The notes under the pieces are model-generated. The model did not search any database. It saw only the letters and a program-made list of their open reading frames with translations, and was not told the DNA's origin. 64,000 nucleotides of DNA, taken from Mycobacterium saskatchewanense. Lineage in GTDB: Bacteria > Actinomycetota > Actinomycetes > Mycobacteriales > Mycobacteriaceae. The DNA lies in contig NZ_AP022573.1 in the NCBI RefSeq assembly GCF_010729105.1, positions 1,798,001-1,862,000 on the forward strand. The letters run 5' to 3'. Positions 34,832 to 63,216 of this stretch are shown piece by piece; within the stretch, counting starts at the first letter, position 1, and every line of letters starts with the position of its first letter. Both the position numbers and the translations under genes were made by a program.

Positions 34832-34848
34832 ATCAAACGGTGAGTGGT
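34832..34848 (+). promoter_or_regulatory. Candidate operator, site J
   Basis: ATCAAACGGTGAGTGGT, flanked by CTA and TAG. It fits the cluster-wide 17-bp pattern (see findings) and lies 96 bp upstream of the ferredoxin start. TTAGC/GCTAA flanks extend the dyad. Confidence 0.55.
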
Positions 34849-34856
34849 TAGCAAGG

Positions 34857-36089
34857 TCAGGGCAGCAACCACTTGCCGTTGTCGCGGAAGATCTTCTCGA
34901 CGACGTCCCGACCGAACGGCTCCACCTTGCCGTACACCTTCGTGACCGCGTTGCGGCCGCCCTCGACGTGCGGGTAGTCGGTCGAAAAGGCCAGCACGTC
35001 CGCAACGTCGTGGCGTTGCAAATACACGTCGACCGGCTCGAACGGGAAGAAGGACACCCGCACATTGTTCTTGACGTACGTCGACGGCAGCTCGGTCAGC
35101 TTGTGCGGGTTGTCGGACATGTGACCCATGTTCTTGGCCCACATGTCCATGTTCTCCATCAGCGGCCCGATCCAATGGCCGCCCACCTCGATCACGCCGA
35201 ACCGCAAACGCGGATGCCGGGCAAACACTCCGCCGGTCACCATGGCCGTCAGGAAGTTCTGGAACGGAATGTGCAGCATGGATGTGGAATAAGGATCGAC
35301 GCTGAACTCGCCAAGCGAGCGGAACCCTTCGAACGGCTCGGCCCGAGCCCACGCATCGCTTTCGAGCAGCTTGCCCTCGCCGCCGATGTGCAGGGTGACG
35401 GTGACGTCGGCTTCGGCGCACATCGCCCACAGCCCATCGAGACTGGAGTGCGCCGGGGACACCCCGCCCGGCGGGATACCGGCAGGCAGCCAGATCGCCC
35501 GCAGCCCACTGTCGATCAATCGTCGCGCCGTCGCGATGATGCCGTCGACGGTGTCTTCGGCGATGGGCGCCACCGGACGCACGCGTGGCGAAAAGGAGGC
35601 CAGGCCTTCCAGCCATTCCTGGTACCGCGCGATGCACCGGTTGGCGACGTCGATCCGCCTCTCCGTCGTCGGGCCGATCGTCGGAAACAGGGAGTGGTCG
35701 TGGGCTTCGACCCGCAGGATCGTCCCATAAAGACCGACGCTGCCCGGAAACATCAGCTGCTTGCTGACGCCCATCTTGTCCATCACGTCCAGCCGCCTGC
35801 TGGTCAGGACGGCGCCCGGGGCGGTCACGCCCTTGACGTTGACGATGTCGTCGTCGATCGGTTTGACGTCGCCGGCATAGGTCGGGTCGTTCGGATGGTT
35901 CTTGTCCATCGGTCCCGCGGCCTCGCCCGTCGCGGTCCAGGCATCGATGAGGGGCTGCACGTCTGGCCCGAAGTAGTCGAGCCACTCCTGGACCGGCATC
36001 ATCTCGTGGCTGTCGACGTCGATGATCTGCCCGGCGAGCGGTTCGAGCCCCGCTGGCATCACGGGCAGCGTTGCGACGGTTTCCACCAT
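34857..36089 (-). CDS. Amidohydrolase, ACMSD-type (TIM-barrel metal-dependent hydrolase/decarboxylase)
   Basis: 410-residue amidohydrolase_2 protein. Metal-binding features are DVDSHEMMP (DxH-like, about residue 25), VTLHIGGEG (barrel His), a GVIEVGGHWIGP segment and FSTDYPHVEG (final Asp). Family members decarboxylate or hydrolyse ring-derived acids such as aminocarboxymuconate semialdehyde. It is divergent from a GlxA/AraC regulator 122 bp away, and the same pairing recurs at 53504-55914. No cluster operator was seen in its promoter, so it may answer to the AraC protein instead. Confidence 0.87.
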   Translation of the reverse strand: MVETVATLPVMPAGLEPLAGQIIDVDSHEMMPVQEWLDYFGPDVQPLIDAWTATGEAAGPMDKNHPNDPTYAGDVKPIDDDIVNVKGVTAPGAVLTSRRLDVMDKMGVSKQLMFPGSVGLYGTILRVEAHDHSLFPTIGPTTERRIDVANRCIARYQEWLEGLASFSPRVRPVAPIAEDTVDGIIATARRLIDSGLRAIWLPAGIPPGGVSPAHSSLDGLWAMCAEADVTVTLHIGGEGKLLESDAWARAEPFEGFRSLGEFSVDPYSTSMLHIPFQNFLTAMVTGGVFARHPRLRFGVIEVGGHWIGPLMENMDMWAKNMGHMSDNPHKLTELPSTYVKNNVRVSFFPFEPVDVYLQRHDVADVLAFSTDYPHVEGGRNAVTKVYGKVEPFGRDVVEKIFRDNGKWLLP

Positions 36090-36211
36090 GGAATCCTTTC
36101 CCTCGGAGTGGTGTCAACGCTAAGCAACCCGGCGCTGATAGACCATGGCCGCGGACGACGATGTACTGGCCGATTGCGCCACATCGGCAGCCTCGCGTAG
36201 CGTCCGGCACC

Positions 36212-37180
36212 ATGGCCGACCTCGTGGTGTTCGCGCCGGCGGCGGCGATCGCCAGCAGTGTTGCGTTGGCGAACGACATTCTGGCCCCGGCAAGCGCCGG
36301 CGCTGCACGGATTGCCGGCGGCGAGCCGGATCGCGTCTTGCTGGCGTCACTGGACGGCGCACCCGTGACATGCCGCGGCGGCCTGACGATCCCGTGTGAC
36401 GCGGCGATCGCGGAGATCCGTTCCTGCACCCTCGTCTGGGTGGCCAGTTATGCCACGCCGCTGGCGGTCGGCGCCGAGCAGAACGCCGAGGTCGCACCCT
36501 GGCTGGCCGAGCAGCACCGCGGCGGCGCCCTCATCGCCGGGCACGGGCCGGGAACATACCTGCTTGCCGAGGCGGGCCTGCTCACCGGCAGGCTGGCGAC
36601 CACGTACCGGCCATTGGCCGCCGAGTTCCGGCGACGACACCCCGAGGTCGATCTGCGGCCCGAGCGGCTCATCACCGATGCCGGCGGGGTCTACTGTTGC
36701 GTCGGCCTCAACTCGGCTGCCGATCTTTTGGTCACCCTGGTCGGCAAGTTGTATGGCCGTGCCGTTGCCACTTCGGTGGGGGCATGGGCGCTCGTCGACT
36801 CCGCGCGCAGTTATCGGGCGGTCACGACCGCGTTCGACGGAATGAAGTATCACGCCGACACCCAGGTGCTTGACATCCAGCTCTGGATCGAAGAGAACTA
36901 CGGCAGCTCGGTGACCGTTGCCGAGATCGCGGCGATGTTCGCGATGAGTACCAGGACACTGATCCGACGGTTCCGGGCGGCGGTCGGGATGCCGCCGAGT
37001 GAGTATCTCGCCCGGGTTCGTGTCGAAGTCGCCAAAGACCTGCTCCGGAGCACGCGCATGACGGTGGCCGAGATCGCCGGCGCCGTTGGATACCGTGACC
37101 TGGGCGCCTTCTACGACTTGTTCGGCAAGCACGTCGGGGGCCGTCCCACAGCGTTCCGGAAGGCCGGGGCGCCGCCGTGA
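36212..37180 (+). CDS. GlxA-type AraC-family transcriptional regulator
   Basis: 322-residue regulator. The N-terminal half is a DJ-1/PfpI-like domain (LVVFAPAAAIASSVALANDIL; the usual nucleophile elbow reads IAGHGPGTYLLAEAGLL, without Cys). The C-terminal half is an AraC DNA-binding domain with two helix-turn-helices (VTVAEIAAMFAMSTRTLIRRF and MTVAEIAGAVGYRDLGAFYDLF). A vicinal Cys-Cys occurs in GGVYCCVGLNSAADLL and is kept in the second copy at 53504. It is divergent from the amidohydrolase gene and probably controls it. The start ATG at 36212 excludes a non-conserved upstream extension. Confidence 0.88.
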   Translation: MADLVVFAPAAAIASSVALANDILAPASAGAARIAGGEPDRVLLASLDGAPVTCRGGLTIPCDAAIAEIRSCTLVWVASYATPLAVGAEQNAEVAPWLAEQHRGGALIAGHGPGTYLLAEAGLLTGRLATTYRPLAAEFRRRHPEVDLRPERLITDAGGVYCCVGLNSAADLLVTLVGKLYGRAVATSVGAWALVDSARSYRAVTTAFDGMKYHADTQVLDIQLWIEENYGSSVTVAEIAAMFAMSTRTLIRRFRAAVGMPPSEYLARVRVEVAKDLLRSTRMTVAEIAGAVGYRDLGAFYDLFGKHVGGRPTAFRKAGAPP

Positions 37181-37184
37181 TGAT

Positions 37185-38324
37185 TCACGGGCGAGCCGGG
37201 AACTCGCCGCCCGCCAGGAACAGCTGCGCCCTGATCTCGGCGGAGTGCTGGCCCGACTCCTCGAGCGCGGGTCCGGGCCACCCGGGCGTGTCCGACAACA
37301 GCGGAGACGGTCGTCCCTCGATCCCCCGCGCTGTGCGGGCAAACAAGCCGCGTTCCTTCAGATGTGGGTGCAGGGGCAGCTCCTCGATGTCGAGGACGGG
37401 GGCACCGCAGATCTCCTCGTCCTCGAGCGCCTTGCTCCACTCGTCCCTTGTCCGGGTGAGGAAGATCTCGGCGATGCGCGCGCGCAACACCGGCCAACGC
37501 TCCTGTCGGTTCTGGTCGGCGACGTCTTCGTCGTCAAGCCCGAGGACCCGCAACAGGTTGGCATAGAACTTGGCTTCGACCGCGCCCACCGAGTACCAGC
37601 CGCCGTCCGCGCAGCGGTAGCAGCCGTAGTAGGGGGCCATGCCGTCCACGACGTTCGTGCCGCGGGGCCCGATGACACCGCAGGCATGGAGCTCGAGCAT
37701 CGGCGCCATCAACTGCGCCGCCCCGTCCATGATCGCGGCGTCGACCACCTGGCCGCGCCCCGTCTTGTGCCGCGCCTGCAATGCGAGCAGCACGCCGATG
37801 ACAGCGGTCAGTGAACCACCGGCCAGGTCGCCCACAAATGCGCCCGGAGGGACCGGAGCCTCGGCGCCGATCTGCCCGAGCGGGCCGGCGAGCGCGATGT
37901 AGTTGATGTCGTGCCCGACGTTGTGCGCGTAAGGACCGGACTGTCCCCAGCCGCTGACCCGGGTGTAGATGAGCCGCGGGTTCAGCTCACACAGCACCTC
38001 GGGACCGAGTCCGAGCCGCTCCATGACCCCCGGCCGGAAGCCCTCCACCAGCACGTCGGCGTGTTCCGCGATTCGGGTGGCGACCTCCACGTCGTCGGGG
38101 ACGGAGAGGTCCAATATGATCGAGCGCTTGCCCCGCGAGAGAATGGGCGGCCCGTCGACCTGTATGCCCGCCCGCGTACCGCCCGGACGCTCGATGAGTA
38201 CGACGTCGGCGCCGAAGTCCCCCAGGATCATGGCGGCGAAGGGCGCGGGAGCGATTGAGCTGAACTCAACTATCTTCAAGCCGCGCAACGGCCTTCGGTC
38301 GGCATCTGGGTGCTCGTCTACCAC
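37185..38324 (-). CDS. Family III CoA-transferase (CaiB/BaiF-like)
   Basis: About 379-residue CoA-transferase. Hallmarks are LKIVEFSSIAPAPFAAMILGDFGADV near the N-terminus, the RGKRSIILDLS block and the catalytic Asp in FVGDLAGGSL. GRGQVVDAAIMDGA follows. It moves CoA between carboxylic acids without ATP. The GTG at 38324 is chosen because the longer ATG start at 38360 would press against site A. It is divergent from an acyl-CoA ligase, so the two could provide alternative routes to the same CoA ester. Confidence 0.88.
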   Translation of the reverse strand: MVDEHPDADRRPLRGLKIVEFSSIAPAPFAAMILGDFGADVVLIERPGGTRAGIQVDGPPILSRGKRSIILDLSVPDDVEVATRIAEHADVLVEGFRPGVMERLGLGPEVLCELNPRLIYTRVSGWGQSGPYAHNVGHDINYIALAGPLGQIGAEAPVPPGAFVGDLAGGSLTAVIGVLLALQARHKTGRGQVVDAAIMDGAAQLMAPMLELHACGVIGPRGTNVVDGMAPYYGCYRCADGGWYSVGAVEAKFYANLLRVLGLDDEDVADQNRQERWPVLRARIAEIFLTRTRDEWSKALEDEEICGAPVLDIEELPLHPHLKERGLFARTARGIEGRPSPLLSDTPGWPGPALEESGQHSAEIRAQLFLAGGEFPARP

Positions 38325-38362
38325 GCTCCGCCCTTCCCGTCGGGATCGATGCCAGAGCATAT

Positions 38363-38379
38363 ACCAATCATTGTTTGAT
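38363..38379 (+). promoter_or_regulatory. Candidate operator, site A (divergent CoA-transferase/ligase promoter)
   Basis: ACCAATCATTGTTTGAT between the two divergent starts, 39 bp from the CoA-transferase GTG and 57 bp from the ligase ATG. It is also part of a broader dyad: TATA and AATCA on the left are mirrored by TGATT and TATA on the right (38360-38386). Confidence 0.6.
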
Positions 38380-38436: not shown

Positions 38437-40086
38437 ATGAGTCGGCGCCCACCATCCGATCTCCCCCATGGGGGCCATGCCTTCGGCATGGAATCCATCT
38501 ACGCGGCATTGGACTGGCGCGCTACCGCAACACCACAGCGGCCGTTCATCAAAGCGGGCGAACGCTGGCGGACATTTGCCGAGATCGACTATGACGCACG
38601 CAGTTTCGCCGCTGGACTCGCCCAACGCGGGGTGAAACCGGGCGACACCGTCGCCCACATTGCGCCTAACTGCGAGGAGCTGATCGTCTCCTTCATGGCG
38701 TGCGCATACCTTGGGGCGGTCAACGTCTCGCTGAACATCTACCTCAAGGGCGACTTCCTCCGGCACCAACTCGTCGACAGCGGCGCCACCGTCCTGGTCG
38801 CCGACCGCGCCGGCGCGGCGACCGGCGCGCCGTTGCTTGCCGGTACGGATATAGCGCACGTCGTGCTCATCGACAAGGCGGATAACACCGGCCTCGGTTT
38901 GCCGGCGACGGTCGAGGTCGCCGACTTCGCGGCCCTCATGGTGCCGCCTGTGAGCGAGCTACGGGCCCACTCGAAGCCGACCGACATCTTCGGCATCGTC
39001 TACACCTCGGGCACGACGGGCCCGTCCAAGGGCTGCATGCTCAGCAACGGCTATTACCTGCAACTGCCCGAACCGTTCTTACTTCACAACTGGGTTGCGC
39101 CGGGTGACCGGATCTTCACCGCGTTGCCCCTATTCCACTCCGCCGCGCAGGTGGTCCTGATGAAGGCACTTACCGTCGAGGGCGTCTCGGCGTGCTTCGA
39201 AAGACAGTTTTCTGCCAGTCGATTTCTTGACCAGGCGGCCGCCGCAGAGGCGACCATCACCTGGGGAGTGGGGCCCATGGCGGCAGTGATGTTGGCCCAG
39301 CCCCCAGACAGATCGGACACGGCGTGGCCACTGCGCCTGGCGATTTGGCACAGTGCGGACCGCGCCCTGCTAGAGCGCTGGGAGACCCGCTTCGGCTCCC
39401 CGGTGGTCGGCGGCGGCTACGGACAGACGGAGGTGGCCGCGGTGACCCTGGCCAGGCCGGAGGACCGTGCGGCGCGCGGGACGATGGGCACGCCGTGTGC
39501 GAACTTCGAGATACGCGTCGCCGACGACGACGACCAACCTGTCGGGCCGGGCGAGGTGGGCGAACTACTCATCCGGCCCCGCGCTCCATTGACCACCTTC
39601 TCCGGTTATTGGCGCAATCCGCAGGCCACCGTCGCGGCCTGGCGCAACCTGTGGCACCACACCGGCGACTACGTGACGGCAGACGCCAACGGCAACATTG
39701 TCTTTGCAGACCGCAAGAAGGACGCTGTTCGTCGGCGCGGTGAGAACGTCTCCTCGTTCGAACTCGAGACGGCGATCGCACAGCACCCAGACGTTCAGCG
39801 CGTCGCCGTCACGGCGGTGCACGCCGTGGTGGGAGACGACGAGATCAAGGTCAGCGTCGTACCGACGCCGGGGTCGACGATCGTTCCCGGCGAGCTCTAC
39901 GAGTTCTTCGCCCAGACCCTCCCGTATTTCGCCATTCCGCGATATCTCGACGTCCGGGAGTCGCTTCCACTCACACCGACCGACCGCGTGCAAAAGCACG
40001 TGCTGCGGGCCGAGGGGGTCCAGCCGCACATGGTGGACTTCGAACAGTTGGGCCTGTCGGTGGCTCGATCGGCCCGGCGCGCATGA
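38437..40086 (+). CDS. ATP-dependent acyl-CoA ligase (ANL superfamily)
   Basis: 549-residue adenylate-forming ligase that activates a carboxylic acid to its CoA thioester. The P-loop motif is VYTSGTTGPSKGCMLSNGY (about residue 190), the A5-type block is GGGYGQTE, then the hinge ADRKKDAVRRRGENVSS, and the C-terminal catalytic Lys is in TDRVQKHVLRAEG. The true start is the ATG at 38437 with GAGGAG upstream; the long upstream extension is antisense to the CoA-transferase. It is followed by an NTF2-like gene and an SDR on the same strand. It shares KGCMLS and NIYLKG with the other two ligases here. Confidence 0.92.
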   Translation: MSRRPPSDLPHGGHAFGMESIYAALDWRATATPQRPFIKAGERWRTFAEIDYDARSFAAGLAQRGVKPGDTVAHIAPNCEELIVSFMACAYLGAVNVSLNIYLKGDFLRHQLVDSGATVLVADRAGAATGAPLLAGTDIAHVVLIDKADNTGLGLPATVEVADFAALMVPPVSELRAHSKPTDIFGIVYTSGTTGPSKGCMLSNGYYLQLPEPFLLHNWVAPGDRIFTALPLFHSAAQVVLMKALTVEGVSACFERQFSASRFLDQAAAAEATITWGVGPMAAVMLAQPPDRSDTAWPLRLAIWHSADRALLERWETRFGSPVVGGGYGQTEVAAVTLARPEDRAARGTMGTPCANFEIRVADDDDQPVGPGEVGELLIRPRAPLTTFSGYWRNPQATVAAWRNLWHHTGDYVTADANGNIVFADRKKDAVRRRGENVSSFELETAIAQHPDVQRVAVTAVHAVVGDDEIKVSVVPTPGSTIVPGELYEFFAQTLPYFAIPRYLDVRESLPLTPTDRVQKHVLRAEGVQPHMVDFEQLGLSVARSARRA

Positions 40087-41555: not shown

Positions 41556-42779
41556 TCAGACCGTCCAGCGCAACGGCAGGCTATCGATCCCCCACGTTCC
41601 GGCGGTTCGCTCCAGCACCTGCGTACCCGGGGCTATGGAGTATTCGGGAATCCGCTTGTGCCACTCTTCCAGCGCGATCCGTAGCTCGACACGGGCGAGG
41701 TGGGACCCGAGGCAGCGGTGCGGTCCAACGCCAAAAGCCAAGTGGCGGTTGACCTCCCGGTCGAGATCGAAGGTGTCGGCATGCGGGAAGGCTTGCTGGT
41801 CGCGATTAGCGCCCGCCAGCGGCAGACTCACCATCTCACCGGCCCTGATCGGGCAACCGCCCAGTTCCGTGTCGACTACGGCCTTGCGCGCCGTTGCGAT
41901 GATCGTGTAATAGCGCAAGAACTCCTCGACCGCGCGGGCGTGGATCTGCGGTTCGGCCACGATCCGCTCTCGGTCAGCCGGATTGCTCGCCAGGTGAAAG
42001 AAGGTGTAGCCGAGCTGGGACGTAACGGTGTCGAGCCCGGCGATGAACATGAAGAGGCACAGCGAGAGCAGGTCCTGATCGGGGATCGGTTTGCCGTCGA
42101 TCTCCCAGCCGAGCGCGATCGAGAGCAGGTCGTCGCGGGTAGTGTCTTGCTCCGCCCGACGCTTACCGATCAGCTCCGAGAAGTAGCCCGTGACGTCATT
42201 AAGCGCTGCAAGGAACTTCGCGCGGTCCGGATCGACCTCGTTGTCGGGGTGCATGATCAAGAACTCCCACTCGAGGAACTGGTCCAGATCCTCGTGCGGA
42301 AGACCGAACAGTTCGAGAAAGACGCTCGTCGGGAACCGCCGGGCGAAGTCGTCGACGAACTCGGCCTCTCCCTCCTCGATGAAGCCATCGATGATGTCGG
42401 CGCAGCGCCGGCGTATGGCGTCGCTCATCCCCTCGGCTTGTTTCGGTGTAAAATACGGCGCGAGCAGGCGCCGCCACGCGGTGTGCTGCGGCGGGTCGAC
42501 CATCAACGGGATCCACGCGTAGGGCGGGTCCGGCTCAATCGGAATCACCGCACTATTGGAGAAGCGGGACGGATCACGTAACACCTCGGCGGTGAGCTCT
42601 TGGTCGGTGACCAGGTAGTAACCCTGGGCCTCGTCCACCCGAACGATCCGCTGGTCGGGACCGAACCGCTTCATCCGGTCATGCGCCGCCGGGGCCGGCA
42701 AGGGGCCCTCGCCGAATTCCCAATGGACGACTGGACAGCGCGCCTTCTGCGCTTGGACCGACTGATCGATCTGTCCCAC
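41556..42779 (-). CDS. Cytochrome P450
   Basis: 407-residue bacterial P450. The I-helix oxygen-activating motif is FIAGLDTVTSQ, the K-helix ExxR is in VEEFLRYY, and the haem-thiolate loop is FGVGPHRCLGSHLAR (Cys about residue 355). The GTG at 42779 is used because GAGGGAGA precedes it and the N-terminus then matches other P450s; the extra upstream frame is unsupported. It is convergent with the SDR gene. No ferredoxin is directly next to it, so it may use the ferredoxin at 46993 or 34542. Substrate unknown. Confidence 0.92.
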   Translation of the reverse strand: MGQIDQSVQAQKARCPVVHWEFGEGPLPAPAAHDRMKRFGPDQRIVRVDEAQGYYLVTDQELTAEVLRDPSRFSNSAVIPIEPDPPYAWIPLMVDPPQHTAWRRLLAPYFTPKQAEGMSDAIRRRCADIIDGFIEEGEAEFVDDFARRFPTSVFLELFGLPHEDLDQFLEWEFLIMHPDNEVDPDRAKFLAALNDVTGYFSELIGKRRAEQDTTRDDLLSIALGWEIDGKPIPDQDLLSLCLFMFIAGLDTVTSQLGYTFFHLASNPADRERIVAEPQIHARAVEEFLRYYTIIATARKAVVDTELGGCPIRAGEMVSLPLAGANRDQQAFPHADTFDLDREVNRHLAFGVGPHRCLGSHLARVELRIALEEWHKRIPEYSIAPGTQVLERTAGTWGIDSLPLRWTV

Positions 42780-42965
42780 GTCGAGTCTCCCTCTGTGTGT
42801 TCGTCGTTCATCGCTGCATGAAGGGCGCGTTGCGCTTCGGGCAAAGGATACGGCCATGCCCGCGTCGGAGAAGTACGTTTCCCTCTCTCACTCCAGGCGA
42901 CTCGCCAGCTCCTGGCCACCCCGGCGCCGGATGATCAATACGGACGACGGTCGTGAACTCCCTAT

Positions 42966-42982
42966 ATCTGTCGCCGTTAGGT
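42966..42982 (-). promoter_or_regulatory. Candidate operator, site I
   Basis: Minus-strand ACCTAACGGCGACAGAT, preceded by TTA. It lies 187 bp upstream of the P450 start. It is one of the weaker members of the motif set: the left half is good, the right half poorer. Confidence 0.4.
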
Positions 42983-43123: not shown

Positions 43124-43140
43124 ACCATACGTTGTTTGGT
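43124..43140 (+). promoter_or_regulatory. Candidate operator, site B
   Basis: ACCATACGTTGTTTGGT preceded by TTA, an imperfect dyad (ACCA...TGGT, AC...GT) 85 bp upstream of the AceE-like start. Confidence 0.6.
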
Positions 43141-43224: not shown

Positions 43225-45576
43225 GTGACGGTCACAACGGCCCGGGGCCATCACTCGGCCCGTCAAGGCTTCTCGACCGGTTCGGCAATCGACCTGAACA
43301 CGATGCAGCTGATCCAGCAGCGCGTGCTCTGGCTTTCCACAGCAATGATCCACCACGCCAACCGGGTGCGCCCTAATCCCTCCGGGCTCAAGGTCGGGGG
43401 TCACCAGGCATCCAGCGCATCGATGGTATCGATCATGACCTCACTCTGGTTCGAGCACTTGCAGCCGGGTGATCGAGTGTCGGTGAAACCACATGCATCT
43501 CCGGTGCTGCACAGCATCAACTATCTGCTCGGCGGGCTCGACGAGTCATACATGTCCATGTTGCGGCAGTTCGGCGGTCTGCAGTCGTATCCGAGTCGGC
43601 TCAAGGACCCCGACCCGGTGGACTATTCAACCGGCTCTGTCGGGATCGGAGCTACCGCGCCGATTTGGGGTGCTGTGGCCCGTAGGTATGTGCAATCATT
43701 CGGCGGCGCGACAGGGACCGGGCGGCAGTATTCGCTCGTTGGCGACGCCGAACTCGACGAGGGTGCGGTATGGGAGGCGATCCTCGACCCCGGAATCTGC
43801 GATCTGGGCGAGGTCGTGTGGATCGTCGATCTCAACCGGCAATCCCTGGATCGCGTCATACCCAACATTGCGGCACGCCGGCTGGAGAAGATGTTCGACG
43901 CCGCGGGTTGGCAAGTGATCACGGTGAAATTCGGTCGTCTCCTCGAAGAGCTCTTCACGCGGGCGGGCGGGCCACAGTTGCGGACCCGAATTTTGGAAAT
44001 GTCCAATCCCGAGTACCAGAGGTTATTGCGGTGCAGTGCCCACGAGGTTCGCGGTCGATTACCCGGCACTGGCACGGGCAGCGATGAAATCAATCGCCTG
44101 GTCGGTGAACTCGATGACGCGACGCTGGTGGCGGCGATCCGCAATCTGGGCGGCCACGACCTGGCCGCCCTGCGGGCGGCTTACCGCGCTATCGACGACA
44201 CCCGCCCCACCGTGATCGTCGCCTACACCATCAAGGGTTATGGCCTTCCAATAGAAGGACACCCACAGAATCATTCCTCCGTTCTCACCGTGAAAGAGTT
44301 CGAGGCGCTCGCGGCGTCGATGGGAACGGATGCCGCCTTTCCATGGGAGCGCTTCGCGGTGGATAGCGCGGCGGGACGCGCGTGCGCCGCAACCGCGGAG
44401 CGCCTTCGGCGGCCTCCGGTTTGCGCAGCGGCGCCACCGGCAGTGCCCAACGACATGGGTCGCACACCGAGGGGGGTTGCGACAACCCAGGCGAGCCTCG
44501 GTCGCACGCTGATGGATCTGACCCGCGAAGCTCCCGAGGCCGCAAAGAGGATCGTCACCGTCAGCCCCGACGTGAGCTCAACCACCAACCTTGGTGGTTG
44601 GGTGAACAAGGTCGGTGTGTGGTCGGCGGCGGAGCGGCGCAACTGGTTTGCCGACGACCGTGAAACGCTGATCCACTGGCGCGAGAAACCGACCGGTCAA
44701 CACATGGAATTGGGGATCGCCGAAACCAATCTCGTCGGTCTGATCGGCGAACTGGGCGCCACGTGGAGCCGTTGGGGCCAACCGCTTTTCCCCATCGGGG
44801 TCCTCTACGACCCCTTCGTCGAGCGTGCGCTCGAGCCGTGGTCCTACGGCATCTATGCGGGCGGCCAGTCGATCCTCGTCGGCACTCCATCCGGTGTCAC
44901 CCTGGCCGCCGAAGGCGGTGCCCACCAATCGATCACGACGCCATCGGTCGGCGTCGAGCAGCCCGGGTGCATCAGCTACGAACCCGCGTTCACGATCGAT
45001 GTCGAGTGGACTCTGCTGGCCAGCCTTGCCCGGCTCGGTCGACCGGACGGAACCTCCGCGTACCTGCGGTTGTCCACCCGGCCAGTGGACCAGACGTTAG
45101 CCGCTGTTCCCGCCGATCCGGCCGCGCGCGAGCGACGGCGCCGACAGGTGGTGGCGGGCGGATACCCGCTTGTTCGCCGGGAGAGCCCGATAGTCACGAT
45201 CGCGGCCATGGGCGCGATGATGACCGAGGCGATCGCCGCGGCGCAACGCCTCGAACGAATGGGCGTGGGCGCAGACGTCGTCTGCGTCACCAGTGCGGGG
45301 CTACTGTTCAAAGCACTGCAAGCCCGACAGGGCCGCGCGCCGGGGGAAACCTGGATCCTCGACCAGACGTTTCCCGCACACCGCGCCACGCCGTTGGTAA
45401 CCGTCCTCGACGGTCACCCGCACACGCTGGCGTTCCTCGCGTCGATTAACCAGGTGCGTGCTACGGCGTTGGGTGTCAGCCAGTTTGGTCAGGTCGGTTC
45501 CCTCGATGAGGTGTATCGCCACCACGGCATCGACACCGACAGCATCGTCGCTGCCGCACTCGATGTCGCTCGCTGA
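43225..45576 (+). CDS. AceE-like thiamine-diphosphate enzyme (homodimeric pyruvate dehydrogenase E1 type)
   Basis: 783-residue protein of the transketolase/AceE superfamily. The N-terminal domain has GHQASSASM, KPHASPVLHS and the thiamine-diphosphate motif GDAELDEGAVWEA...VDLNRQSLD (about residue 172). The middle pyrimidine domain has QHMELGIAETNLVGLIGELG. The C-terminal transketolase-like domain ends SLDEVYRHHGID. True AceE proteins are around 900 residues; this one is shorter, and no E2 or E3 gene is nearby. It may decarboxylate a 2-oxoacid or transfer a ketol group in the pathway. The GTG at 43225 follows GAGGAG. Confidence 0.85.
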   Translation: MTVTTARGHHSARQGFSTGSAIDLNTMQLIQQRVLWLSTAMIHHANRVRPNPSGLKVGGHQASSASMVSIMTSLWFEHLQPGDRVSVKPHASPVLHSINYLLGGLDESYMSMLRQFGGLQSYPSRLKDPDPVDYSTGSVGIGATAPIWGAVARRYVQSFGGATGTGRQYSLVGDAELDEGAVWEAILDPGICDLGEVVWIVDLNRQSLDRVIPNIAARRLEKMFDAAGWQVITVKFGRLLEELFTRAGGPQLRTRILEMSNPEYQRLLRCSAHEVRGRLPGTGTGSDEINRLVGELDDATLVAAIRNLGGHDLAALRAAYRAIDDTRPTVIVAYTIKGYGLPIEGHPQNHSSVLTVKEFEALAASMGTDAAFPWERFAVDSAAGRACAATAERLRRPPVCAAAPPAVPNDMGRTPRGVATTQASLGRTLMDLTREAPEAAKRIVTVSPDVSSTTNLGGWVNKVGVWSAAERRNWFADDRETLIHWREKPTGQHMELGIAETNLVGLIGELGATWSRWGQPLFPIGVLYDPFVERALEPWSYGIYAGGQSILVGTPSGVTLAAEGGAHQSITTPSVGVEQPGCISYEPAFTIDVEWTLLASLARLGRPDGTSAYLRLSTRPVDQTLAAVPADPAARERRRRQVVAGGYPLVRRESPIVTIAAMGAMMTEAIAAAQRLERMGVGADVVCVTSAGLLFKALQARQGRAPGETWILDQTFPAHRATPLVTVLDGHPHTLAFLASINQVRATALGVSQFGQVGSLDEVYRHHGIDTDSIVAAALDVAR

Positions 45577-45627: not shown

Positions 45628-45644
45628 ATCAATCGACGTTGGAT
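45628..45644 (-). promoter_or_regulatory. Candidate operator, site D
   Basis: Minus-strand ATCCAACGTCGATTGAT flanked by TTA, 152 bp upstream of the P450-ferredoxin-SDR unit. It is nearly the same as site H. Confidence 0.55.
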
Positions 45645-48293: not shown

Positions 48294-48647
48294 CTACATG
48301 CTGTGGAACATGATGCCGCCGTTACGAATCAGCACCTTCTTCGCCTTTTCGGAGGGACATCCATGGACCTCGACGCGCACGAGTTTGGCATGCCGTTCGA
48401 GGCCGGGCAGTAGGACGACCGCGGCCTCACCCTTGACGTGGTCGATGAAGGCCTGCGAAGTGTCATAGATCTCCAGGACATGGCACCGGCCGCGGCTGTC
48501 ATCCCAATACCAGTCATAACCGCTGATACCAGGTTCGTTGCGCGCAACGCTGTCTCGGACGGCACGGCTCGCCTCGGCGAACTCGGTCGGGTCGTCGACT
48601 TCGAACTCGACCCACAGCATGAAGCCATCTGGCCCGTGGCCGATCAA
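48294..48647 (-). CDS. Antibiotic-biosynthesis-monooxygenase-like (ABM, dimeric alpha/beta barrel) protein
   Basis: About 117 residues with a ferredoxin-like ABM fold: strand FMLWVEFEVDDPTEF, helix, GISGYDWYWDDSRGRCHVLEIY, helix, LVRVEVHG. Related proteins are small cofactor-free monooxygenases or isomerases acting on polycyclic or quinone substrates. The likely start is TTG at 48647, which overlaps the stop of the flavoprotein gene (TTGA) and has CGGAG eight bases upstream; an ATG at 48620 is the alternative. It is coupled to the ketosteroid-dehydrogenase-like gene. Confidence 0.7.
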   Translation of the reverse strand: MIGHGPDGFMLWVEFEVDDPTEFAEASRAVRDSVARNEPGISGYDWYWDDSRGRCHVLEIYDTSQAFIDHVKGEAAVVLLPGLERHAKLVRVEVHGCPSEKAKKVLIRNGGIMFHSM

Positions 48648-50421: not shown

Positions 50422-50438
50422 ACCATACGGTGATTGAT
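50422..50438 (+). promoter_or_regulatory. Candidate operator, site C
   Basis: ACCATACGGTGATTGAT preceded by TTA, 87 bp upstream of the flavoprotein start. The left half is identical to sites B and E. Confidence 0.6.
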
Positions 50439-51693: not shown

Positions 51694-52089
51694 CTATTCA
51701 GCGAGGACGAACGTGGGCAACGTAGCGCCGTTGTCGTATCTGCGAGGGGACACGCGGACTTTGGTGCCGACATGCACGCTGTCCACTTCGCAGTCGACGA
51801 CATGAGTCAGCATCGACCAACCATCATCGAGCTCCACGATCGCAAGCACGAACGGGGTCGGCTGGTCAGGACTCACGGTCTGGTGGACAACCGTGAACGA
51901 ATAGACCGAGCCGATTCCCTGACTGTTGACCCACCGCCAGTCGCCGCTACCACAGTACGGGCACAGCGGTTCGGGGACAAAGAAACGCCCACCGCACGAA
52001 ACGCACTCGGGCACGGTGAGTTTGCCGTCTTTTTCGAGAGCGTTCCAGAAAGCGGCACTCAGCTCGTTCGGCACTGGCTTCGGAGGCAT
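51694..52089 (-). CDS. Zn-ribbon/OB-fold protein (DUF35), thiolase partner
   Basis: 131-residue DUF35 protein. The rubredoxin-like zinc ribbon has two CxxC pairs (CVSCGGRF and CPYCGSGD), followed by an OB-fold (SVYSFTVVHQTVSP, PFVLAIVELDDGW). DUF35 proteins form obligate complexes with thiolase-like condensing or aldolase enzymes and present the acyl-CoA. The ATG at 52089 starts one base after the thiolase stop, so the two are translationally coupled and surely act together. Confidence 0.92.
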   Translation of the reverse strand: MPPKPVPNELSAAFWNALEKDGKLTVPECVSCGGRFFVPEPLCPYCGSGDWRWVNSQGIGSVYSFTVVHQTVSPDQPTPFVLAIVELDDGWSMLTHVVDCEVDSVHVGTKVRVSPRRYDNGATLPTFVLAE

Positions 52090-52090
52090 A

Positions 52091-53251
52091 TCAGACCTTT
52101 CCGAGGAGGATGACTTCCTGATGGCTCGCACCCGATCCCGCGTTGGCGGCGACGCCTGCCCGAGCGTTGGGCACCTGGTGCACCGCGGTCCCGCGCAATT
52201 GTCGAACGACTTCGATAATGCGCAGCGTTTGGTGCTGCATGCCGTTCCACGCGTACGACAGAAGGCCCCCGTCGACGTTTACCGGTAGCGGTGATTCAAG
52301 ACCAATCCCAACGCTTTCGACATACGGGCCGCCCTCCCCCTCCTTGCATACGCCCAGACACTCCAGGGTCCGGATGATCTCGAAGGAATTGGGGTCGTAC
52401 AACGCCATCACATCGATGTCCTCGATCGACAAACCAGATTGGGCGAACATCCGGGAAGCGGCGGCGGCGCCGACGCGACCGACGGTCCGGTAGATCGGGG
52501 GATTCTTGTAAGGTGCCTCATGGAACTGCATTCCGCCACCCAGGACGGCCACCGCTGGCTGCTTGAGATCGCGTGCGCGTTCGACCGACGTCAAGACCAC
52601 CGCACCGCCGCCCTCCGCGGACACACACAGATCCAGCAGGTGAAAAGGGCTGGCGACCATCCGCGATGCAAGCACATCAGCAATTGTGATCTGCGGCTTC
52701 CCGTACATTACCGCTTCGGGGTTGGTGTAGCCGTAATTGCGGATCGTCGCGGCCACGGTCGCCAACTGCTCGGGGGTCGTCCCGAACTCGTACATGTGCC
52801 GTTGTGCGACCAACGCGAAGAACGGCACAACGTAGGCATCCCAGATGTCGCTGAACTCCAGTGGGTCAGGGACATTTACCGGCCCGGAACTGAACATCCC
52901 GGTTTGCGCCCCGCCCACGACCGCCACCTCGCACAAGCCGGCAGCGATGCCCGAGGCCGCCTTGAGCACACCGCGGATTCCTGCCACGTCGGTGAAGCTA
53001 TCCGAAATCCAGGACAGATCATGGCCAAGGACGCGACCCCAGGACGCCGCGTCTCCCGTACGCCCTAATTCTGGCCGCCCTGGCCGGGGCCACTCGAGTG
53101 CGACGCCGTCCACGTCATCGCGAGTCAAGCCGGCATCGTCCAACGCCGAATCCATGGCGCTGACCACGAGGCCGAACAGCGTCTCTCCCTGGATCCGCTT
53201 GGCCTGTTCAGTTGCCCCGACTCCCACGATAGCTACGTCTTTGAGATTCAC
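52091..53251 (-). CDS. Thiolase-like lipid-transfer/aldolase protein (Ltp2/SCP-x type)
   Basis: 386-residue thiolase-fold protein. It starts VNLKDVAIVGVGATEQ and has GIRGVLKAASGIAAGLCEVAVVGG where thiolases normally carry the nucleophilic Cys; no Cys is present there. The C-terminal GGLLSYAWNGMQHQ replaces the GGxxSxGHP motif. These changes, with an adjacent DUF35 partner, are typical of Ltp2-like retro-aldolases of steroid side-chain degradation and other non-thiolytic members. The GTG at 53251 has GGCGGAG upstream; an ATG at 53275 is the alternative. Site E lies just upstream. Confidence 0.88.
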   Translation of the reverse strand: MNLKDVAIVGVGATEQAKRIQGETLFGLVVSAMDSALDDAGLTRDDVDGVALEWPRPGRPELGRTGDAASWGRVLGHDLSWISDSFTDVAGIRGVLKAASGIAAGLCEVAVVGGAQTGMFSSGPVNVPDPLEFSDIWDAYVVPFFALVAQRHMYEFGTTPEQLATVAATIRNYGYTNPEAVMYGKPQITIADVLASRMVASPFHLLDLCVSAEGGGAVVLTSVERARDLKQPAVAVLGGGMQFHEAPYKNPPIYRTVGRVGAAAASRMFAQSGLSIEDIDVMALYDPNSFEIIRTLECLGVCKEGEGGPYVESVGIGLESPLPVNVDGGLLSYAWNGMQHQTLRIIEVVRQLRGTAVHQVPNARAGVAANAGSGASHQEVILLGKV

Positions 53252-53294
53252 TGTCTGCACTCCGCCCAGTAGCATTCCGCGGTGGAATCCGATA

Positions 53295-53311
53295 ACCAAT
53301 CGGCGTATGGT
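53295..53311 (-). promoter_or_regulatory. Candidate operator, site E (best dyad)
   Basis: Minus-strand ACCATACGCCGATTGGT, an almost ideal ACCAnnCGnCGnnTGGT palindrome, 44 bp upstream of the thiolase GTG. It is the clearest member of the set. Confidence 0.65.
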
Positions 53312-58400: not shown

Positions 58401-58417
58401 ACCAAACGGCGCTTATT
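58401..58417 (+). promoter_or_regulatory. Candidate operator, site K (weak)
   Basis: ACCAAACGGCGCTTATT. The left half fits the motif, the right half does not. It lies 327 bp from the ligase start and 415 bp from tetR, so its role is doubtful. Confidence 0.3.
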
Positions 58418-58631: not shown

Positions 58632-58648
58632 CAACAACACCGATTGGT
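58632..58648 (+). promoter_or_regulatory. Candidate operator, site L, in the tetR promoter region
   Basis: CAACAACACCGATTGGT followed by TAA. The right half CCGATTGGT is identical to site E, the left half is degenerate. It lies 184 bp upstream of tetR and could mediate autoregulation. Confidence 0.4.
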
Positions 58649-58708: not shown

Positions 58709-58729
58709 TTCACCGTGCTAATCTCATAG

Positions 58730-58761
58730 TGTCAGATTTCTATGATGTCAGATTTCGATGA
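58730..58761. repeat. 16-bp tandem direct repeat upstream of tetR
   Basis: TGTCAGATTTCTATGA (58730-58745) followed directly by TGTCAGATTTCGATGA (58746-58761), one mismatch, ending 70 bp before the tetR start. It is AT-rich compared with the surroundings. Confidence 0.75.
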
Positions 58762-58831: not shown

Positions 58832-59569
58832 ATGGCTCGCCCCAAAGTTCCCTTGATATCACGCGAGAAGGCACTCGAGACGGCGCTTCGCATCATCGAC
58901 ACCGATGGCATCGACGCGCTGAGTATCCGCCGCTTGGGCGCTGAGCTCAAGGTGAACGGCGCCTCCCTTTACCATCATTTCGCCAATAAGGAAGCGATTC
59001 TCGTCGGCGCCACCGAACTCGCCCTCGAACGAACTCCGATCGACGTTCAGTCGGACGGCAGCGACTGGAAGCTTTGGATGCTCGATGGAACTCGCCAGCT
59101 GCGCGACGTTCTCGTCGCACATCCCGCTCTGATCCCGATAATCGTCAAGCGTCGCACTCTTGGCGTCCGTGCTGAAGCTCTGGAAACTATCACGCGCAAG
59201 CTCATCGGCAGGGGTGTGCCCGCCGAAATCATCCTTCCACTCTACGAGGCCCTTGAACGCTTCGTCATCGGCACCGCCGTGCGTCAGGTCAACGGGGAGG
59301 CGATGCCACCGACGACCAAGGAGGACGAAGCCTACCCCCACCTCCGATTGGCGACGGTCACCCGTGGATCGACTGACGACGAACTCTTCGACGTCGTAGC
59401 CCTTGGGATCATGGACGCCGTCGCCCGCACTGCCACCGAACATCCGGCCGGGGGCGAGCACGCGCAGCAGGACCAAGCGGTCTCCCCCGACGGTTCTCCC
59501 CGCGCGAAGAAATCTGCCCGGCGAGCCGTCTCGGCCTCACGACGTCGACGGCCGGCGAATACACCCTAG
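58832..59569 (+). CDS. TetR-family transcriptional regulator
   Basis: 245-residue repressor-type protein. The N-terminal helix-turn-helix spans about residues 10-55 (ALETALRIIDTDGIDALSIRRL, then GASLYHHFANKEAILVGA). The helical ligand-binding domain runs to about residue 200, and a basic, disordered tail (RAKKSARRAVSASRRRR) follows. It is the only TetR regulator in the catabolic region. With a candidate operator in its own promoter region it is the best candidate controller of the 17-bp motif regulon, but this is inference. The ATG at 58832 directly follows an AT-rich leader. Confidence 0.92.
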   Translation: MARPKVPLISREKALETALRIIDTDGIDALSIRRLGAELKVNGASLYHHFANKEAILVGATELALERTPIDVQSDGSDWKLWMLDGTRQLRDVLVAHPALIPIIVKRRTLGVRAEALETITRKLIGRGVPAEIILPLYEALERFVIGTAVRQVNGEAMPPTTKEDEAYPHLRLATVTRGSTDDELFDVVALGIMDAVARTATEHPAGGEHAQQDQAVSPDGSPRAKKSARRAVSASRRRRPANTP

Positions 59570-59643: not shown

Positions 59644-60114
59644 CTACCACCACTTGGGCATCCCGGCCAGACTGGCGTCCGGCCGGAACGTTCGGCTGAC
59701 AAATCGCCAGCCGTCATCGGTGAGCAGGAGTCGGTCGTCGTAGGAGCCGGAGGTTACCCATGACGATGAACCCGGTTCCCTGCGTTCCGACCGGCGTCCA
59801 AGGATCACCCTGGCCTGCTGGCGCGCGTGCGTTCCATCGATCGTGATGCGATGGTTCATGGTCAAGTGGACGAGTCCGGCCGGGATCATCGCGGAGACCA
59901 TCTTCCGCAGCGCCTCGTGCCCCTTTGTCTCAGGCACGCCCTTTTGAATGAACTCCCCGGCCGGGACGAACGTGTCCACCCATCCTTCAACGTCCCCGTT
60001 ATCCCAGGCGTCGTTGTAGGTCGAGGTCAGCTCGGCGATCGCGATATGGTCTTCGATCGCGGCGATTCTCGCATCGAGGGAAATGTCAGTCTGCATCGCC
60101 TTGGCAGGTCTCAC
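59644..60114 (-). CDS. SnoaL/NTF2-like protein (BaiE-type dehydratase fold)
   Basis: 156-residue protein of the SnoaL_4-like group. LDARIAAIEDHIAIAELTSTYNDAWDNGDVEGWVDTF is the long N-terminal helix with the Tyr/Asp pattern. HLTMNHRITIDG carries the conserved His, and the protein ends in the strand WRFVSRTFRPD. Members include ring dehydratases and dioxygenase small subunits. The start is GTG 60114 or ATG 60096; neither has a good ribosome-binding site. Site F sits 32-50 bp upstream, shared with the divergent dioxygenase-like gene. Confidence 0.82.
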   Translation of the reverse strand: MRPAKAMQTDISLDARIAAIEDHIAIAELTSTYNDAWDNGDVEGWVDTFVPAGEFIQKGVPETKGHEALRKMVSAMIPAGLVHLTMNHRITIDGTHARQQARVILGRRSERREPGSSSWVTSGSYDDRLLLTDDGWRFVSRTFRPDASLAGMPKWW

Positions 60115-60145
60115 GGTTCGAGTTTAGAGAGGTCGAAACCCTAGG

Positions 60146-60162
60146 GTCAAGCGGTGTTTGGT
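60146..60162 (-). promoter_or_regulatory. Candidate operator, site F (divergent SnoaL/dioxygenase promoter)
   Basis: Minus-strand ACCAAACACCGCTTGAC preceded by TTA, between divergent starts at 60114 and 60268. Confidence 0.5.
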
Positions 60163-60267
60163 TAATGCCGACGAATCCCTGCTCGCCGGCGCCGAACAAA
60201 GGTTGGTCGCATCACACATAATCCAACGCTGCTGGCTAAATTGGGCCGCCGGTGATACTTTCGCGCT

Positions 60268-61371
60268 ATGCGAACGCTCATCCAGTTCAGCAAGGGCCGA
60301 ACGAGTCGGCAGGCGCACCGGGACCTGCCGACTGTCTCGTCCGGCGAAGACCTTCTGAAAGACGACGAACTTACCCGCAAGGGGTTTGACGGACGTGAGG
60401 CAGTCTTGTATCGGGCCAATGACCCGACGACGTTTCGCACGGTGGGACGGTTCCGCTCGACAAACGTAATGTTGTCCGACATCACGCCTTCCGACTTGGC
60501 AGACCCGCGAGGGACGGCTCAGAGGCTCTACTACAACGCTGATGCGTGCATCTGGCTTTCCCGGCGACGCGAACCGATGCCGTTCTTCCGGCGCAATGTC
60601 GATGGCGACGAGTGCTGGTTCGTCCATCGCGGGACGGGGACCGTTGAAACCGAATTCGGCCCGATCACTTATGGCGAGGGTGATTACGTGGTGATTCCGA
60701 AGGCCATCACACATCGGTGGGTGGTCGACGGGGACGAGACCTTCCTTTTCGGAATCGAGACTGTGGACGAGCTTCGTGCCCCTACGTACGTGGGTCTGGG
60801 TCGGCATGCGCCGTTCGATCCTGACGTAATCCGGGTGCCCGAGCCCACGCCGGTGGCAGAAGCGACGGCAGAACACGAAATTTCGGTCAAGTACGACGGC
60901 GAGTATTCCTCGATCTGGGTCGACCATCATCCATGTGACGTCGAGGGCTGGAAGGGCGACTACTTTCCGTTCGCCTTCAACATTCGGGACTGGAACGTGA
61001 TCATGTCGGATTCGCTGCATCTGCCGCCTTCCATGCATGTGTTCCTTGTCGCGGAGGGCATAAACATCATCAACCTGCTGCCCCGGCCGTTTGAATCGGT
61101 TGACGGTGTCGAGCGGATCCCCTGGTTTCACCGTAACGCCGACTACGACGAGATCGCCTTGATCCATGGGGGCAAGTCGCTCGGGCGGCCGATGAAACCG
61201 GGCCTGGTGAGTCACGACCCACAGGGGATCCACCACGGTTTTCCGGATCGCGCACGAATAAAGTCCCGGCGTGAGCGAACCGACCATCCGCGAATCGAGT
61301 GGGAAATCATCATGATTGAGGCTGCCCGCCCCCTCAAACTCGATCCCGTAGTCGAAGCCATATCACAATGA
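60268..61371 (+). CDS. Homogentisate 1,2-dioxygenase-like cupin protein
   Basis: 367-residue cupin related to homogentisate dioxygenase (canonical about 440 residues). The first cupin domain has CWFVHRGTGTVETEFGPITY and DYVVIPKAITHRW. In the second, the metal-site region WFHRNADYDEIALIHG (His288, Asp294/Glu295) and SHDPQGIHHGFPD (His316/322/323) keep the His-acid-His type of iron ligands. It should be an Fe(II) ring-cleaving dioxygenase, but the substrate need not be homogentisate. The start is an ATG at 60268. The alpha/beta hydrolase downstream may act on its product. Confidence 0.82.
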   Translation: MRTLIQFSKGRTSRQAHRDLPTVSSGEDLLKDDELTRKGFDGREAVLYRANDPTTFRTVGRFRSTNVMLSDITPSDLADPRGTAQRLYYNADACIWLSRRREPMPFFRRNVDGDECWFVHRGTGTVETEFGPITYGEGDYVVIPKAITHRWVVDGDETFLFGIETVDELRAPTYVGLGRHAPFDPDVIRVPEPTPVAEATAEHEISVKYDGEYSSIWVDHHPCDVEGWKGDYFPFAFNIRDWNVIMSDSLHLPPSMHVFLVAEGINIINLLPRPFESVDGVERIPWFHRNADYDEIALIHGGKSLGRPMKPGLVSHDPQGIHHGFPDRARIKSRRERTDHPRIEWEIIMIEAARPLKLDPVVEAISQ

Positions 61372-61628: not shown

Positions 61629-62792
61629 CTAGATGAGTAGGTCGTTGTCCGTGCCCCATGCCAGCACCGACTCCACCGCTTCGTCGAGATACTGTCGCTG
61701 CTCCCCGTCGCCGCTGAAATAGTGGTTCGCGCCCTTGATCACTGCCGAAACCTTCGACTCCGAAGCGACCCTCTCAAAGAAGTCTCGTTGATGCGAGGCG
61801 GGACATGCGTCGTCCGCAGAGTTCGTCACGACCAGCACAGGCACCGTGATGCGTGGCGCAGCATCGATGGCGTCAACTTGTGCATCGTCAATGCTCCACT
61901 GCGACAGCCATCCTCGTGTCGTGCAGAACCGGGCAAGGCCTGATGACGCATCGTTGGCGATGCGTGGATCGCCGAGGTAGGACCAGCCGGGCACCCGGTC
62001 GTTCGGATCGATCGCAGGATCCAGCCATCTCAGATCGGCCATTGTGCCGTGCACCACAAAGCAGTACTCGTCGTGAGGGCGACCCGTCGATTGCATGCGG
62101 TCGTACCGCTCACGCACACGGGCGGTGATGCGGCGATTGCGGTCCAGCTGCGCCAACCGGTACTTCTGCACGAATTCAGGCGAATAGGGGGGCTTATTCG
62201 GGTTCGCCGGGTCATAGATGTTGAGTTCTGGGTCCCGCTCGTCCGGTCGATCCTCGTCCTGAATGGACGGATCGAGAAAGTCGGTCAACAGATGGTGTCG
62301 GCTTCGATGGCTAGCCATCAACACCACGCCGTCGGCGCGCAGAAACTCGGTGTCGGCAATCACCGAAGGTTCGCCCGCGGCCGTGTGGGTGATCGTTTTG
62401 TGCTCCGCTTCAGCCTGATAGGCCGCAATAAGCGAGCCTCCACCGCTCCACCCGACCAATACGACGCGCTCGTAACCCAAGCGCTCCTTGGTCTCTCGTA
62501 TCAGTGCAGCCAGGTCGAGCAGTGCGTTCTCCATCTGCAGGCCGGCATCTCCCGTCGTGTAACGAGTCCCACCTGCAACGACGTGCAGTCCGAGACGGGC
62601 CAGATGGGAAAACGCGGGCAGGTAGGCCGGCGAGCCTATCGGATGCATCCCCACGAACGCGGTCCTCGAGTCTTCGTCGGTGCGTATCAACTGCGCCTGA
62701 CGCACCACCGAGTCGTCTATCGAGCCATAGACGTCTTTACGCGGCGATTTTTCTTTGTTGACAACAAGAAAGGGCGTTCGCGTGGTCTTCAT
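61629..62792 (-). CDS. Alpha/beta hydrolase
   Basis: 387-residue hydrolase. GYERVVLVGWSGGGSLIAAY is the nucleophile elbow (Ser116). VPVLVVTNSADDACPASHQRDFF gives the acid and GANHYFSGDGEQRQYL the His. A large insertion (about residues 150-250) forms a lid. It could hydrolyse a ring-fission product or a CoA/ester intermediate. The ATG at 62792 lies only 14 bp from site G, suggesting a short or absent leader or a blocking operator. It is convergent with the dioxygenase-like gene. Confidence 0.85.
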   Translation of the reverse strand: MKTTRTPFLVVNKEKSPRKDVYGSIDDSVVRQAQLIRTDEDSRTAFVGMHPIGSPAYLPAFSHLARLGLHVVAGGTRYTTGDAGLQMENALLDLAALIRETKERLGYERVVLVGWSGGGSLIAAYQAEAEHKTITHTAAGEPSVIADTEFLRADGVVLMASHRSRHHLLTDFLDPSIQDEDRPDERDPELNIYDPANPNKPPYSPEFVQKYRLAQLDRNRRITARVRERYDRMQSTGRPHDEYCFVVHGTMADLRWLDPAIDPNDRVPGWSYLGDPRIANDASSGLARFCTTRGWLSQWSIDDAQVDAIDAAPRITVPVLVVTNSADDACPASHQRDFFERVASESKVSAVIKGANHYFSGDGEQRQYLDEAVESVLAWGTDNDLLI

Positions 62793-62805
62793 GACCCAGG
62801 ATATT

Positions 62806-62822
62806 ATCCCACAGCGTTTGGT
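62806..62822 (+). promoter_or_regulatory. Candidate operator, site G
   Basis: ATCCCACAGCGTTTGGT, 14 bp upstream of the hydrolase ATG on the opposite strand; the reverse complement begins ACCAAACGC. An AT-rich GATAAT-like stretch adjoins it. Confidence 0.45.
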
Positions 62823-63199
62823 TTTTCCACATCATCGTCTGCACGGCGCGCGTAGAAGCGGGCATCGGGGCGAGCCGTTGAAGAGCCCCGGCGAGCCGAG
62901 CGGGCCGAAGACGCAGGCCTGACAGACACCTGGGTGACGACGTTGGGACCGCCTTCGCAGCGGCGCCATCGCACCACGGAGGGAGGAAGCCCCCGCGACC
63001 AGTCGATCGTCGGCCGTGAGATTGCCTCGCCCACCAGGTGGCTATGGCGGTAGCTGAAGCCTCAGCCCTCGACGACCTCCCCGCATTCGGCGGTGTGACG
63101 CGCAGCCCGTGACGTGTCCTTGGACTCGGCAACCAACGCGGATCGGCTGTCCGACGGAACGTGATGATGCCCTACTATCGGAGGCGTTATCTTCCACGA

Positions 63200-63216
63200 A
63201 CCGATCGATGTTGGAT
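63200..63216 (-). promoter_or_regulatory. Candidate operator, site H
   Basis: Minus-strand ATCCAACATCGATCGGT, matching site D at 14 of 17 positions, 58 bp upstream of the third ligase start. Confidence 0.55.

Follow-up and report, generated by a model that had tools for sequence, protein, structure and literature searches.

The catabolic locus and its operator sites

The window considered here is the whole stretch of 64,000 nucleotides of Mycobacterium saskatchewanense that was analysed (NZ_AP022573.1, positions 1,798,001 to 1,862,000), which carries part of a catabolic gene cluster with a recurring palindromic site in its intergenic DNA. The operator consensus is AACCAAAC-RNY-GTTTGGTT, a palindrome with which the sites of related genomes agree, and it is very probably the operator of a local TetR subfamily that controls the cluster. 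The original prediction had placed ten main and two weaker sites by eye; all ten main sites are present at the positions given, with leave-one-out scores of 12.7-28.5. For scoring, a 25-bp palindromised weight matrix was built from these ten sites and its counts were symmetrised, so that the evidence for symmetry lies in the sites as printed and in the dyads found de novo. Coordinates follow the numbering of the window, the cluster sequence was continued 47 kb beyond its right edge on the same chromosome, and gene calls are codon-based and were made within the analysis. The operators and the genes they face are as follows.

34542-34736, minus strand: ferredoxin-like open reading frame (ORF) of 64 amino acids (aa), ferredoxin assigned by eye
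34832..34848: operator, score 24.7, 104 bp upstream of the ferredoxin-like ORF, which is followed by an OYE/FadH-like gene
37185..38360 (alternative start 38324), minus strand: coenzyme A (CoA)-transferase-like gene, candidate target; matches below curated cutoffs
38363..38379: operator, score 29.9, between the divergent CoA-transferase and AMP ligase genes
38437..40086, plus strand: AMP-forming acyl-CoA ligase, candidate target; matches below curated cutoffs
41556..42857 (alternative start 42779), minus strand: cytochrome P450; nearest solved structures SalCYP, CYP125-like, CYP143 and CYP101
42966..42982: operator, score 19.0 (leave-one-out 12.7), between the P450 and AceE-like genes
43124..43140: operator, score 27.1, 93 bp upstream of the AceE-like gene
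43225..45576, plus strand: AceE-like thiamine diphosphate enzyme (homodimeric E1 type), candidate target
45628..45644: operator, score 25.7, 160 bp upstream of the next P450 gene
45796..46977, plus strand: cytochrome P450, MycG/P450cin-like, followed by a 66-aa ferredoxin-like ORF (by eye)
48644..50335, minus strand: 3-ketosteroid-dehydrogenase-like (KstD-like) flavoprotein, candidate target; matches below curated cutoffs
50422..50438: operator, score 30.6, 95 bp upstream of the KstD-like gene
51694..53275, minus strand: thiolase/lipid-transfer-like gene (52091-53275) with downstream ChsH2-type OB protein, candidate target
53295..53311: operator, score 24.0, 28 bp upstream of the thiolase/lipid-transfer-like gene
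58401..58417: weak operator, score 15.5, between an AMP ligase gene (56413-58131, minus strand) and tetR-A
58632..58648: weak operator-like site, score 13.7, 192 bp upstream of tetR-A
58721..58737: further weak operator-like site (score 14.1), 103 bp ahead of tetR-A; absent from the sites first listed
58832..59569, plus strand: tetR-A, TetR family, 245 aa, proposed operator reader; Pfam PF00440 above cutoff, TetR/ActR fold match
60146..60162: operator, score 20.3, between a SnoaL-like gene (59644-60096, minus strand) and the HgmA-like gene
60221..60237: second operator of the same promoter, score 19.3; absent from the sites first listed
60268..61371, plus strand: homogentisate-dioxygenase-like (HgmA-like) cupin, candidate target
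61629..62792, minus strand: alpha/beta hydrolase, candidate target
62806..62822: operator, score 24.2, 22 bp upstream of the alpha/beta hydrolase gene
63200..63216: operator, score 21.8, 67 bp upstream of an AMP ligase gene (63275-64873, plus strand) that extends beyond the window
79.8-80.6 k, right of the window: tetR-B, second TetR paralogue, 258 aa, adjoining the Mce importer operon

By analogy, the thiolase and the ChsH2-type OB protein might form a retro-aldolase-like pair. Conservation of the AceE-like enzyme is about 80% in Rhodococcus, Nocardia, Gordonia and M. smegmatis. On four Rhodococcus plasmids the AceE-like gene lies near an Lrp/AsnC gene, and on three of the four it adjoins an E2 gene. 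In the present cluster, no E2 gene was found among the neighbours searched.

Distribution of the operator within and across genomes

Between 34,832 and 110,882, a cluster stretch of 77 kb, 27 sites reach a matrix score of 15, while 17 control stretches of the same genome (340 kb) hold a single match, scoring 15.0. No site of that strength occurs in the 54 kb to the left or the 9 kb to the right, and at a threshold of 18 the cluster retains 22 sites and the controls none. Seventeen of the 27 sites were outside the training set, and 15 of them lie right of the window, together with the second TetR gene, beyond the view of the original prediction. All 27 are intergenic, spread over 21 intergenic regions of a block that is 87% coding. 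Moreover, the degenerate pattern WWAYCNWACRNYGTWNGRTWW, with up to two mismatches, occurs 25 times in the 6.01-Mb genome, 23 times in the cluster (about 76 kb, 1.3% of the chromosome) and twice elsewhere; its reversed control has two matches genome-wide. The G+C content of the block 34500-110900 (0.62-0.67 in 5-kb steps) is lower than that of most flanks (0.65-0.71) and than the control mean of 0.688, which fits an acquired block, and the cluster may be an acquired island.

The shared 17-bp motif is highly specific as a weight matrix but too strict as first written. With up to two mismatches, the literal pattern gives 10 matches in the window where 5.65 are expected, a number reached in 11 of 100 shuffles, and these matches include no more than 5 of the 12 predicted sites; this is barely above chance. 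The matrix was used in its place. The pattern ACCANNCGNNGNNTGGT alone was also set aside, having nine strand-matches genome-wide, five of them (at four places) in the region. Of the two sites called weaker, the one at 58401 passes the threshold and the one at 58632 falls below it.

Homologues of the TetR protein were detected in at least 8 of 148 genomes of the genus (E<=1e-40, own genome included), and at E<=1e-38 in at least 5 of 397 genomes of the order and at least 4 of 401 of the family, with the own genome and G133 in both; these counts are lower bounds, as the best few candidates per genome were scored. Twelve loci from other genomes (E<=1e-38) and one Rhodococcus locus (L037, 33% identity) were compared, and all 13 carry sites of at least 15 with the matrix trained on the M. 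saskatchewanense genome alone. In total there are 75 such sites, 1 to 15 per locus, of which 74 are intergenic and 73 lie within 400 bp of a start, while Markov shuffles yield 0-0.4 per locus. The first genes after the sites in relatives (n=78) include 12 for P450s, 7 for AMP-binding proteins, 6 for aldehyde dehydrogenases, 5 each for CoA-transferase III and enoyl-CoA hydratase, and 2 for MlaE. At the level of the genus, the pattern occurs 6, 9, 10, 12, 13, 14 and 15 times in the seven other TetR-positive genomes, while the 140 negatives average 2.83 (p=7e-6). In addition, a de novo search for palindromic dyads in the relatives' intergenic DNA, in which no matrix was used, ranked TGAA-6, a different motif, first, followed by CAAA-5, AACC-11, AAAC-3, AACA-1 and ACCA-9, all five in register with the operator. 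No site of 13 or more occurs in seven short loci (2.6-3.5 kb) whose TetR proteins are remote (E worse than 1e-20).

The motif ranked first belongs to a TGAA-N6-TTCA-N4-TGAA-N6-TTCA double palindrome that stands in intergenic DNA of three related clusters, those of G045, G132 and G031 (L069:3019, 19490; L074:3749, 10412, 14538; L078:18858; L079:11741), and is absent from the intergenic DNA of the window's 140-kb region. It probably serves another regulator as operator. In both G133 (L068) and G274 (L091), the part of the TetR homologue that was matched contains one in-frame stop.

Whether the site follows the regulator or the enzyme was addressed with orthologue pairs (at least 50% identity, sites of at least 13). 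Of the 34 pairs in which the M. saskatchewanense gene has a site, 22 also have one in the relative, versus 3 of the 15 pairs in which the M. saskatchewanense gene has none (p=0.004), the pairs being partly non-independent and the 15-pair group swollen by genes inside operons. AceE-like loci without such a TetR, namely those of the four Rhodococcus plasmids and another part of pP7a, have no sites of 15 or more (0 of 5). Within the plasmid collection, a close TetR homologue (E<=1e-25) occurs at one place only, on pP7a of M. avium subsp. hominissuis (L103, NZ_CP076857.1, 205000-254900), where a TetR of 47% identity is accompanied by six sites of at least 15, five of them intergenic. The pP7a operators precede three P450 genes and the genes of an alpha/beta hydrolase, an NAD(P)H-binding protein and an enoyl-CoA hydratase. 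The five intergenic sites are equal or nearly equal to those of G100, so pP7a is not an independent case; it does indicate that such clusters are also located on plasmids. The sites, their confinement to the cluster and their co-occurrence with the TetR across genomes are directly established, and operator presence appears to track the TetR rather than the enzyme gene. Both tests put forward with the original prediction, enrichment limited to this cluster and conservation together with tetR, gave a positive outcome.

Several observations weigh against this reading. Twelve of the 34 orthologue pairs lack a site in the relative, including the AceE-like gene of G133, and the contrast of 34 with 15 pairs is partly a matter of operon position. 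The G460 and G584 loci have one site each. Counts of the pattern and its reversed control are nearly equal in G031 (10 vs 9) and G045 (12 vs 8), and three TetR-negative genomes have 10-12 scattered matches. A contig search with the TetR gave 25 loci, the best with 33% identity over most of the protein; four were scanned with the matrix (L037, L038, L039 and L042), and L038 (36% over 110 residues), L039 and L042 lack sites of 15 or more, so that the edge of the family is blurred. Finally, autoregulation of tetR-A and tetR-B is doubtful because the sites ahead of both genes are weak, 13.7 and 14.1 before tetR-A and 13.3 before tetR-B, the site at 58401 sharing the gap of tetR-A. Generally, autoregulation is common but not obligatory in the TetR family.

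The TetR paralogues and other candidate regulators

A single local TetR had been proposed as the regulator. A TetR-type reader is supported. A single regulator is not supported as stated: the cluster has two paralogues with almost the same reading head, and either or both may bind. TetR-A and TetR-B are 73% identical overall, with 85% in residues 1-60, 76% in residues 61-200 and 29% in the tails. The helix-turn-helix is near-identical in both, and the reading helix differs at one residue (H/Y). TetR-A has one TetR_N match, and TetR-B was assigned to the family through its identity to A. The AlphaFold model of TetR-A (mean predicted local distance difference test score 83.5) consists of helices only and has the TetR/ActR fold; several of its closest folds hold multi-ring ligands, judging by entry titles, which fits a ring-compound ligand without proving one. 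The DNA-reading helix is near-invariant across a 40-sequence alignment.

The operator is most likely read by both sister TetR proteins, and such probable twin repressors on one operator are the unusual feature of this system. One of the two might instead be the sole reader, with the other a decaying or re-specialised copy. The divergent tails and the H/Y difference in the reading helix could be taken this way, and we regard it as a serious though minority possibility, since both tetR frames are open and conservation extends well beyond the DNA-binding part.

The operator could also belong to another regulator of the cluster, either the GlxA/FtrA-type AraC proteins (36212, 53504) or a flavin-reductase protein with a weak IclR-like domain (104 k). 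Such proteins are present. The promoter of the flavin-reductase gene itself carries an operator (103888), and relatives of the protein occur in two of eight TetR-positive loci. However, relatives of the AraC-type proteins (E<=1e-10) occur in none of these eight loci and the TetR in all of them, the loci having been picked by TetR, and the AraC promoters lack an operator. As first predicted, the two GlxA/amidohydrolase promoters have no matrix match of even 7.5. An alternative regulator of this kind is very unlikely. The GlxA/FtrA-type AraC and amidohydrolase genes form divergent pairs (34857-37180, 53504-55914) without an operator; a related amidohydrolase of G133 (65%) has two sites upstream.

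Predicted regulation, the pathway and known systems

In the mechanism that we propose, AACCAAAC-RNY-GTTTGGTT would be the operator for a subfamily of TetR repressors with two local members, A and B, encoded inside the cluster. Without ligand, a TetR dimer would bind the 27 sites and block transcription, while a pathway compound, probably the ring-containing substrate or its CoA ester, would release the dimer and thereby switch on the Mce importer, the P450s, the ligases and the ring and side-chain enzymes together. Binding by A and/or B, repression rather than activation, the ligand and the substrate are all inferred. Over 128 site-gene rows, the median distance from site centre to start codon is 80 bp. 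In an uncontrolled count on the same rows, the -10 falls within 10 bases of a site centre in 21 of 32 promoter-like hexamer pairs; that of TTGACG-17-TATGGT, for instance, lies in the 50422 site. The distance and the overlap suggest repression by blocking RNA polymerase, which is the usual mode in the TetR family.

The same overlap might be expected if the motif were a promoter element, either a sigma-factor signature or an AT-rich promoter shape common to co-expressed catabolic genes, and it is suggestive only, as the operator's own letters favour it. The motif is, however, palindromic, lies almost wholly within 1.3% of the genome and follows one TetR from genome to genome, which makes a promoter element highly improbable.

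More speculatively, A and B might share the operator set and differ in ligand recognition, so that the regulon would open only with both ligands (e.g., substrate and late intermediate) or via A/B heterodimers, as a two-input gate. More broadly, the TetR/operator pair would be a portable control module that has taken over differing sets of P450/CoA catabolic and Mce genes in several genera of Mycobacteriales. This extension is tentative and, in our view, rather unlikely.

As regards the pathway, the operators at 79278 and 79308 belong to an Mce operon with two MlaE/YrbE permeases and six MlaD/Mce proteins. Other operator-fronted genes beyond the window encode two aldehyde dehydrogenases, a CoA-transferase with an HMG-CoA-lyase-like enzyme, a VOC protein, short-chain dehydrogenases/reductases, a 779-aa double acyl-CoA dehydrogenase, an AMP ligase, a SnoaL-like protein, a zinc alcohol dehydrogenase, a P450 (by eye and similarity), a flavin reductase and an amidohydrolase. 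Taken together, this gene set might function as machinery to import a seemingly lipid-like ring compound, oxidise it, form CoA esters and shorten them, and the cluster is best read as a local TetR regulon through which a cyclic, CoA-activated substrate would be taken up and degraded. A steroid-, terpenoid- or aromatic-type pathway had been predicted; the gene set is of steroid/terpenoid type, now with an Mce importer operon, and gene content is compatible with each of the three substrate types. For 20 proteins tried, no NCBIfam model reached its curated cutoff among the best 25 matches per protein. Naming the substrate from the window P450s was set aside, their matches being CYP101/CYP125-like and MycG/P450cin structures.

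Among known systems, KstR2 likewise represents local TetR control of ring catabolism, with the operator ANCAAGNNCTTGNT, which differs from the one described here. TetR(D)/TetR(B) and ActR, known from solved structures, are about 17-26% identical to the cluster TetR, and no tetracycline efflux gene occurs among the family matches in the region. The Mce3R-type regulator is a tandem double-TetR protein, an identity that was rejected for TetR-A and TetR-B on account of their lengths, the one TetR_N match of A and the 73% identity of B to it. KstR also governs an Mce importer (mce4). According to PMC1995591, the KstR regulon of mycobacteria consists of one TetR repressor and many copies of one palindrome before lipid-metabolism genes. 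The likeness thus comprises a single palindrome, a TetR and lipid catabolism, while the KstR operator TnnAACnnGTTnnA differs and, in the present genome, a single 76-kb block that encodes two TetR paralogues holds 23 of the 25 pattern sites.

That the motif is a degenerate KstR or KstR2 operator might be considered in view of the KstD-like, Mce, ligase and thiolase genes, which are akin to those of steroid regulons, but we give this almost no credence. A scan of 140 kb gave no exact match to the KstR core TNNAACNNGTTNNA, as described in PMC1995591, which agrees with the predicted distinctness from KstR. The operator TnnAACnnGTTnnA has no exact match in the window or the whole cluster, and none of its eight one-mismatch matches in the cluster coincides with a site. 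The KstR2 motif, as generally known, has no exact match and two one-mismatch matches in the cluster, both within genes. Elsewhere in the genome, a stricter KstR-type pattern has 15 matches and its reversed control 6, which makes a separate regulon of the KstR type likely. Such palindromes (TAGAACNNGTTCTA and close variants, e.g., at 2621462, 2639044, 3039081-3049261 and 3096122 of the chromosome, G000:C1) are probably the ordinary KstR regulon.

No published account of the operator motif or the cluster was found in the open-licence PMC literature, most subscription journals being outside that scope. A mycobacterial TetR motif survey (PMC4482099) predicts palindromes for 30 regulators that are conserved and divergently placed and that carry Rv numbers; the survey covers conserved regulators, in contrast to the cluster TetR with its homologues in at least 8 of 148 genus genomes. 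From sequence alone, one regulon is delimited whose roughly 27 operators surround an uncharacterised catabolic pathway that includes an Mce importer of its own; the operator search pattern finds sister pathways in other actinobacteria. A compound releasing the TetR from its operator would point to the compound that the pathway handles and hence to the cargo of the Mce transporter. The locus is an ordinary kind of system in an undescribed setting, larger than first reported, with a confirmed operator and a well-supported regulon.

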